From Anoxynatronum buryatiense (GTDB taxonomy: Bacteria; Bacillota; Clostridia; Peptostreptococcales; Tindalliaceae): 64,000 nucleotides of DNA. Under the pieces are notes generated by a model. The model had not been told where the DNA came from and did no database searches. It saw only the letters and a list, made by a program, of their open reading frames with translations. Position numbers and translations under genes: made by a program. The stretch spans positions 62,001 through 126,000 of the forward strand of contig NZ_FXUF01000002.1 in assembly GCF_900182905.1 (NCBI RefSeq). Reading direction: 5' to 3'. Below, piece after piece: positions 57,370 through 58,258 of the stretch (the stretch's first letter is position 1; every line of letters starts with the position of its first letter).

Positions 57370-57402
57370 AACCCCCTGGGAACTGATAAATCCCAGGGGG
57401 TT
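57370..57402. terminator. Bidirectional terminator between MCP and thioredoxin-like gene
   Basis: A 12-bp stem AACCCCCTGGGA/TCCCAGGGGGTT with a 9-base loop; on the minus strand five T follow. Confidence 0.85.
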
Positions 57403-57435: not shown

Positions 57436-57705
57436 CTACAGGTGCTGCTGTTCATTGACAGCTTTTTTCAGAAGATCCGGCATGGTGAAAATGGAGGGAA
57501 CGTGTCCCGCCGCCACCAGTTGCCGGTTTACAAATAGTGCCGGCAGTGACTGAATGCCGTCTTTTTCTATGACGGCAAGGCTGCAGACCAGTGTCACGGA
57601 TGCCTTCAGCTGAAGGCGGCGAAGGGCCTCGTCAACGACGGGCTTCATTTTACTGAAGCCTCAGCCAATGTCCTCATAAATGGTGATGTGAATCTGTGTA
57701 TCGAT
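57436..57705 (-). CDS. Thioredoxin-like protein, candidate selenoprotein (in-frame UGA)
   Basis: The clear coding part (MKPVVDEALRRLQLKAS to the stop at 57436, 70 codons) is the helix and C-terminal half of a small thioredoxin-fold protein (SLPALFVNRQLVAAGHVPS). The missing first strand is found directly upstream in the same frame, IHITIYEDIG-(UGA)-GFSK, with UGA at 57663-57661 exactly where the family's first redox Cys stands (motif U-x-x-S). A perfect hairpin follows the UGA at once. The start is unusual: GAGGTGAT is well placed only for ATC at 57705-57703. Alternatives are a decayed gene or a 70-residue protein from ATG 57648. Confidence 0.5.
57641..57660 (-). promoter_or_regulatory. SECIS-like hairpin directly after the in-frame UGA
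   Basis: On the minus strand GGCTTCA-GTAAAA-TGAAGCC forms a perfect 7-bp stem with a GU-containing six-base loop, beginning at the base after UGA. Bacterial selenocysteine insertion elements are hairpins just downstream of UGA; this loop is closer to the UGA than in E. coli fdhF. Confidence 0.4.
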
Positions 57706-57745
57706 GGGATCACCTCACTGACAAATTGTTAATCACACGATCATA

Positions 57746-58258
57746 TTACCCGTCTTTACGGCTGTTATTCACCTGAATGGCTTTGGCACCCCGATCAACG
57801 GCAATCATGCCGGTACGTACCAACTCTTTAATGCCAAAATCCCGGAGCATTTCTTCCAGTGCCGCCATTTTTTTGCTGTCACCGGTGACTTGAATGGTGA
57901 CAGAGTTTTTGCTGATGTCTACGATCTTTTCTCTGAAAATGTTGACAATTTCCACGATCTCGTTTCGGGTGGCGGGAGTGGCGTGCACTTTAATGAGAGC
58001 CAGCTCACGTGCAATGGCCTCTTGGCCGATGTCGGAAACTTTAATGACATCAATCAACTTATTCAGCTGTTTAGAGATCTGTTCCAGAATATATTCGTCT
58101 CCTTCGGCAACGATGGTAATGCGGGAGATTTCAGGGTCTTCCGTCACACCCACTGCCAGGCTGTGAATGTTAAAGCCTCTGCGGCTAAACAAGCCCACCA
58201 CTTTAGAAAGGACACTGGGGCGGTTTTCAACAAGAATGGCCAAAATATGCTTTTTCAT
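57746..58258 (-). CDS. ilvN: Acetolactate synthase small (regulatory) subunit
   Basis: A 170-residue subunit with an N-terminal ACT domain (ILAILVENRPSVLSKVVGLF, RRGFNIHSLAVG) that binds valine for feedback control, and a C-terminal domain (KIVDISKNSVTIQVTGD). The length matches the IlvH/IlvN long form. AAGGAGGG precedes the ATG, and the gene lies 13 bases after ilvB in the same operon. Confidence 0.94.
   Translation of the reverse strand: MKKHILAILVENRPSVLSKVVGLFSRRGFNIHSLAVGVTEDPEISRITIVAEGDEYILEQISKQLNKLIDVIKVSDIGQEAIARELALIKVHATPATRNEIVEIVNIFREKIVDISKNSVTIQVTGDSKKMAALEEMLRDFGIKELVRTGMIAVDRGAKAIQVNNSRKDG

Follow-up and report, generated by a model that had tools for sequence, protein, structure and literature searches.

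The window, by which is meant the entire 64-kb stretch of DNA analyzed here, very likely harbors on its minus strand (positions 57436 to 57705) a genuine selenoprotein gene, the predicted 89-residue product of which would belong to a small subfamily of the Thioredoxin_3-fold (MTH895/ArsE-like) proteins and would be translated from an AUC start codon. This assignment is based on a match to the Pfam model PF13192, on 22 copies of the gene that carry an in-frame UGA codon, and on an AlphaFold2 model. Read from position 57705, the product begins I-D-T-Q-I-H-I-T-I-Y-E-D-I-G-U-G-F-S-K-M-K-P-V-V-D-E-A, where U represents the single in-frame UGA (57661 to 57663, minus strand), interpreted as selenocysteine (Sec) at residue 15, and the frame terminates at a TAG stop codon at positions 57436 to 57438 of the same strand. 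On its 5′ side, the frame extends no further than a TGA at 57717 to 57715, and in-frame reading of the sequence revealed no ATG, GTG, or TTG codon between this TGA and the Sec codon. The sole listed open reading frame (ORF) of at least 60 residues in this frame starts downstream of the UGA, at the ATG at position 57648, and specifies 70 residues. From a gene finder blind to both the start codon and the UGA, the call to be expected is only a truncated fragment or nothing.

The window protein matched the Pfam Thioredoxin_3 model with an E value of 3.7e-7 and a score of 30.5 bits, thus passing the gathering score of 24.8, and the AlphaFold2 model, in which Sec was read as Cys, displayed a thioredoxin-type structure (mean pLDDT of 92.7; pTM of 0.83) whose first beta strand spans residues 5 to 10. 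The PDB matches of the protein include thioredoxins and MTH895, and VIA-align returned many chains of the thioredoxin fold (KaiB, SelW-like proteins, and thioredoxins) with Z scores of 7.7 to 9.6, a spread which is too narrow for the ranking of families. It is extremely improbable that the UGA is a plain stop codon and that the real gene begins at ATG 57648, thus encoding a truncated protein of 70 residues; such an ORF does exist, but its product would be devoid of the first beta strand, all 22 UGA copies as well as the one Cys copy contain the upstream strand, and the UGA itself is retained in 22 copies. Furthermore, the codons specifying IYEDIG differ only synonymously among the source genome (G000) and two genomes of the same genus (G001 and G002, referred to here as the congeners). 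The initial annotation had assigned the first beta strand to the sequence directly upstream of the UGA and had named homologues that lack this strand and start at the Met equivalent to 57648 as an observation that would refute the selenoprotein reading; the homologues include the strand.

The existence of the selenoprotein family as such is regarded as close to certain. A search of 98 genomes (that of the window included) with the protein yielded matches in 34 genomes at an E value of 0.01 or lower, and in the best 17 of these 34, the match crosses an in-frame TGA. A profile search across 393 genomes of the same order returned matches in 30 genomes at an E value of 1e-15 or lower, the best match scoring at least 93 bits in 21 of the 30 and at most 66.9 bits in the remaining 9. 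In total, 23 subfamily copies were counted in 21 genomes, among which 22 (that of the window included) carry UGA at exactly this position and the remaining one, that of G019, carries Cys; because the profile was built from 18 of these 23 copies, only the second copy of G066, both copies of G481, and the copies of G493 and G528 (93 to 109 bits) represent independent recoveries. The single Cys form is of the kind for which the initial annotation had proposed to search, and its broader suggestion of a thioredoxin-like selenoprotein with a U-x-x-S motif was corroborated by the UGA in 22 of the 23 copies, the PF13192 match, and the presence of U-x-x-S in all 22 UGA copies.

Sampling at higher taxonomic levels recovered no match above 70 bits outside the order among 391 genomes of the class (E value of 1e-6 or lower) and no further UGA member among 398 genomes of the phylum (E value of 1e-17 or lower), where the other best matches reached at most 69.6 bits and were without a TGA. 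A scan of genome contigs with the single window protein as the query gave no match. When seven family proteins were employed, 34 loci were obtained, among which 7 are of the UGA form (Maledivibacter halophilus, Candidatus Petromonas tenebris, Anaerosolibacter sp., Anaerosolibacter carboniphilus, Alkaliphilus transvaalensis, a Clostridiaceae MAG, and A. serpentinus), all of them already among the census copies. Candidates that were rejected as UGA members are G159, in which the TGA is the terminal stop codon, and the weak TGA-containing matches of G080 and G086, whose reading frames show no thioredoxin. SelB was detected in 18 of the 20 UGA-form genomes, the two without it (G050 and G058) being 79% and 63% complete, respectively, while the genome of the Cys form (G019; L030/L046), which is 99% complete and consists of one contig, yielded no detectable SelB. 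Since SelB is widespread in the order (detected in 247 of 393 genomes), its co-occurrence with the UGA form constitutes only modest evidence.

The source genome encodes the machinery for Sec insertion in a cluster of approximately 6.5 kb (L010:7401-13870), in which the tRNA-Sec gene selC (identified by ARAGORN) is located beside selB (identified by Pfam), together with selA and selD, both of which were recognized from ORF translations. The joint presence of selA, selB, selC, and selD removes the absence of Sec machinery, which the initial annotation had named as an argument against a selenoprotein, from consideration. The selD gene itself contains an in-frame UGA (motif SAGUAAKI) and the gene for glycine reductase GrdA contains one in-frame TGA, and the organism, therefore, possesses other canonical selenoprotein genes. 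Because of its in-frame UGA, selD is represented in the ORF list by an ORF without the N terminus. A symporter-like ORF on the opposite strand separates selA from selD in this cluster.

The hairpin GCC-CGUC-GUU-GACG-A-GGC at positions 57626 to 57643 (minus strand) represents, in all likelihood, the bacterial SECIS element of the gene, as suggested by RNAalifold prediction, covariation, and spacing. Supplied with a gap-free alignment of the 45 nt from the UGA in all 22 UGA copies and with no structure, RNAalifold predicted the consensus GCC-CAUC-GUN-GAUG-n-GGC. Across the 20 distinct rows of the alignment, 95.0% of the 140 stem cells are paired (shuffle mean, 90.4), a value reached by none of 500 shuffles, and the same holds for the 8 two-sided cells and for the covariation score of 0.232; two measures are weaker, in that changes on both sides in three of the seven pairs were equaled in 15 of 500 shuffles and the five further pair types in 371 of 500, where none of these counts are to be read as probabilities, as the sequences are related. 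Sliding the partners by one to three columns reduced pairing to 24 to 51%. At columns 25 and 33 of the stem, the window has G-C and both congeners have A-U. The apical loop GUU begins 24 nt downstream of the UGA, the stem comprises 4 bp plus 3 bp, and the hairpin folded alone has an energy of -8.6 kcal/mol. These properties fall within the limits of the published bSECIS model as given in the available text of PMC13188914, namely, an apical loop of 3 to 9 nt with a G in the first two positions, an upper stem of 4 to 16 bp, a distance of 16 to 37 nt from the UGA, and an energy of -7.5 kcal/mol or lower. No Rfam match was obtained at the Sec locus. At the protein level, the SECIS overlaps the conserved stretch P-[IV]-V-D-E-A, which has been lost from the Cys form of G019 (E-N-I-L-I-R-A instead); this loss would be consistent with conservation of the stretch on account of its RNA.

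The initial annotation had drawn attention to a perfect hairpin directly after the UGA, and such a hairpin of 7 bp is indeed present at positions 57641 to 57660 of the minus strand, with an energy of -10.2 kcal/mol when folded alone and a z score of -5.8. As an insertion signal, however, it failed the covariation check and was rejected, since only 61.4% of its cells are paired in the family, which is no better than in shuffled alignments, and its covariation score was reached by 129 of 500 shuffles. The covarying hairpin begins 17 nt further downstream, and the two have the GCC at 57641 to 57643 in common. In the minimum-energy fold of the 45-nt segment of the window, the non-conserved hairpin is kept, and of the SECIS stem only the upper 4 bp remain. 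The UGA-abutting hairpin may be incidental.

Translation is probably initiated at the ATC codon at positions 57703 to 57705 of the minus strand, which corresponds to the very codon that serves as the ATG start in G001 and G002. At the aligned codon, the 22 UGA copies have ATG in 20 cases, GTG in 1, and ATC in 1, the latter being that of the window. The in-frame ATG at 57744 was rejected as a start, as UGA codons at 57735 to 57733 and 57717 to 57715 intervene before the ATC. The ATC is preceded by an extended Shine-Dalgarno sequence, GAGGTGATCC (57707 to 57716, minus strand), with a spacing of 7 nt from GAGG to ATC. Its pairing energy with an assumed 3′ end of 16S rRNA is -19.7 kcal/mol, which represents the strongest value among the 22 family members (next best, -17.5 kcal/mol on the same tail). 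A search of the assembly (47 contigs) for the pattern of this 16S tail yielded no hit. Against the same assumed tail, the leader is also stronger than those of all 42 window ORFs compared (best, -18.7 kcal/mol), these being mechanically defined ORFs of at least 150 residues with the best start taken within the first 30 codons. The best ribosome binding site thus points to the ATC, as had been claimed from the sequence initially.

On this basis, the window copy is considered to be probably functional and started at AUC. A freshly dying copy of a true selenoprotein family, in which an ATG has turned into ATC and from which little or no protein is made, is an unlikely alternative reading, even if the remaining 21 UGA copies have ATG (20 copies) or GTG (1 copy) as the start codon and near-cognate starts are weak, having attained approximately 10%, with a maximum of 30%, of AUG activity in the S. 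aureus reporters described in the available text of PMC13009471. Against such decay, the positions conserved in at least 90% of the family are retained in the window copy, the SECIS stem carries a paired G-C where the congeners have A-U, and the Shine-Dalgarno sequence, at its 7-nt spacing, is the strongest of the family. Nor is there an excess of divergence. The Sec protein of the window shares 57.8 and 57.6% identity with those of G001 and G002, respectively (75.3% between G001 and G002), where the corresponding values are 87.6 and 90.0% (94.7%) for ilvN and 83.4 and 82.3% (94.2%) for ilvB; relative to ilvN and ilvB, the divergence of the Sec gene is lower, not higher, on the pairs that involve the window than between the two congeners, which speaks against decay. 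Between the start and the UGA, the numbers of identical, synonymous, and non-synonymous codons are 5, 3, and 5 against G001 and 4, 4, and 5 against G002, which are too few for a test; the synonymous differences are located in the conserved IYEDIG stretch. Decay from ATG, which the initial annotation had left as an option, is disfavored on these grounds, and an AUC start represents the better case.

It is also quite unlikely that the ATC reflects an assembly or sequencing error and that the real codon is ATG. The two codons differ by a single base in one assembly, the site is otherwise that of an ordinary start, and both congeners have ATG, but finished short-read assemblies seldom contain single-base errors, and the Shine-Dalgarno sequence is exceptionally strong, as would be expected if it compensated for a weak start. 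Initiation at AUC, which remains our preferred reading, would constitute a natural AUC start in a Clostridia genome, and one that is testable.

The gene located directly upstream on the same strand is ilvN (57746 to 58258; PF10369, E value of 1.6e-29), which encodes the small subunit of acetolactate synthase and is itself preceded by ilvB, and the gene order ilvB-ilvN-Sec gene is common to the window, G001, and G002. Directly after the ilvN stop codon, a three-codon frame, ATG-ATC-GTG, ended by UGA (57733 to 57744) and in frame with the Sec gene, was observed, which might have a role in coupling or reinitiation. Between the Sec gene and a converging chemoreceptor gene, direct reading of the sequence identified a GC-rich inverted repeat at 57370 to 57402 that is probably a terminator common to both genes; it was not picked up by the terminator scan.

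The position of Sec within the fold differs by one residue from that first assumed, which was that the UGA replaces the first redox Cys. Ungapped alignment to CxxC relatives places the first-Cys position at residue 14, Sec at residue 15, and the second-Cys position at residue 17, a register that is shared by the MTH895 profile match. Structural alignment with 1ILO (75 of 77 residues, over equally long ranges) agrees, though without printed residue pairs. Residue 14 is Gly in the genus of the window and in genome family f6 and Cys in the others, residue 17 is F, I, Y, G, or P, and Ser18 is present in 22 of 22 UGA copies. The active-site motif thus appears to be better written as [C/G]-U-x-x-S, with Sec predicted to lie one residue after the first CxxC cysteine, although a one-residue shift in the Sec loop that is compensated elsewhere is possible. 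By these alignments, Sec occupies a position in the thioredoxin fold that coincides with neither CxxC cysteine.

The flanks of 20 of the 22 UGA copies (all but those of G033 and G050) were examined by tblastn. A CxxC thioredoxin gene is located directly upstream in 7 of the 20 (G032, G057, G066a, G090, G095, G481a, and G528), an arsR-type regulator gene is found nearby in 6 (G007, G008, G032, G057, G095, and G481a), and an ArsP_1 permease gene is part of the same operon in 4 (G008, G032, G095, and G481a). At G066a, the arsR-type matches are weaker and more remote and the permease is encoded on the opposite strand, and in Maledivibacter (G057), only a remnant of the permease gene (L073:5524-5685) persists between arsR and the CxxC thioredoxin gene, with the Sec thioredoxin gene intact. 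The ArsP_1 permease gene itself contains an in-frame UGA at codon 85 (SPFUSCSTVP) in three genomes, G032, G095, and G481 (the loci, not in this order, being L138:4164-5111, L141:4101-5048, and L139:5710-6657 [minus]), and a Cys codon in G008 (L077). The models nearest to the permease of G095 (L138) are SaoE, at 126 bits against a cutoff of 325, and SO_0444, at 93 bits against a cutoff of 300, and the UGA-containing form is possibly a new Sec-containing permease subfamily.

Beside the other copies among these 20, that of the window included, the tblastn survey found no ars-like partners. In genome family f6, an RtcB gene follows the Sec gene in G058 and, by translation reading, in G022. Two genomes of family f2 harbor, ahead of the CxxC and Sec thioredoxin genes, a gene for a protein of 115 to 119 residues (L137:4464-4823 and L144:4198-4545), with no Pfam match in either case and no NCBIfam match for that of L137. 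The source genome carries a separate non-Sec cluster (L146:516-2964; C1), in which one strand bears arsR-like and arsC-like ORFs and the opposite strand bears genes for a Cys-type ArsP_1 permease and a CxxC thioredoxin of the MTH895/ArsE type.

For part of the family, this gene content suggests a role in the handling of soft metal(loid)s or thiols, which for the window gene itself is only inferred; overall, such a role is advanced tentatively, with prospects slightly short of even. Without a CxxC, a monothiol-type (here monoselenol) mechanism would be the simplest guess. Translation is proposed to start at the AUC, held there by the unusually strong extended Shine-Dalgarno sequence, and at codon 15, SelB with Sec-tRNA would read the UGA as selenocysteine under the direction of the hairpin at 57626 to 57643, as covariation, spacing, and the presence of selABCD suggest. 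The selenol would be situated in the loop before the first helix, within the [C/G]-U-x-x-S motif, where it would probably form a one-selenol redox or soft-metal(loid)-binding center with no CxxC partner. More speculative, and in our view doubtful, is a scheme in which the Sec family, with its own [C/G]-U-x-x-S layout, would act as the selenol hand-over partner of the Sec-bearing ArsP_1 permease, so that two selenoproteins would together make up an efflux module for soft metals or metalloids; in the species of the window, the gene would have left the operon and would be throttled by an AUC start, for which its Shine-Dalgarno sequence, the strongest in the family, would compensate.

Among described proteins, MTH895/ArsE (TIGR00412, PF13192, PDB 1ILO) shares the fold with the window family, aligns with it over the full length essentially without gaps, and is linked to it through the CxxC member that directly precedes the Sec gene in 7 of 20 copies, whereas the window family has no CxxC ([C/G]-U-x-x-S in all 22 UGA copies) and bears Sec one residue past the first-Cys position. 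TIGR00412 is the only NCBIfam model matched by the window protein, at 33.6 bits and thus below the cutoff of 62, and single family members gave other weak matches. Table 1 of a 2026 review (PMC13188914) comprises 119 selenoprotein families or subfamilies and features PF13192 twice, as Sec.1 and Sec.2, both of which, like the present family, bear Sec in a short Cys-containing motif; by the motif descriptions in the available text of that source, they are set apart as CxU and UxC, respectively, in contrast to [C/G]-U-x-x-S. SaoT (NF040730) is likewise a thioredoxin-like selenoprotein, and the permease beside some of the Sec genes is nearest to SaoE, but SaoT is set apart by its described UxxC motif (PMC13188914, available text), and its model gave no match at an E value of 1 or lower among the 18 family members scanned. 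In the same Table 1, UxxS is assigned to arsenate reductase, a rhodanese form, and a peroxiredoxin-like family, and the motif nearest to CUxxS is the CUxxT of the ABC-transport protein SaoB (PMC13188914). No family matching the window protein was found among the 119 families of that table or in NCBIfam, and, as judged from a literature search, Table 1, and NCBIfam, with Sec.1, Sec.2, and SaoT compared by description, this selenoprotein subfamily of anaerobic clostridia is apparently undescribed. It would add to the known selenoproteins a subfamily with a covariation-supported SECIS and with a Cys form from a genome that gave no SelB match. With regard to initiation, the AUA and AUU starts documented for S. 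aureus infC, cvfC1, and ccpN (PMC13009471, available text) similarly combine a weak start codon with an extended Shine-Dalgarno sequence, and they differ from the present case in that the codon is AUC here, in a selenoprotein gene and in one genome only.
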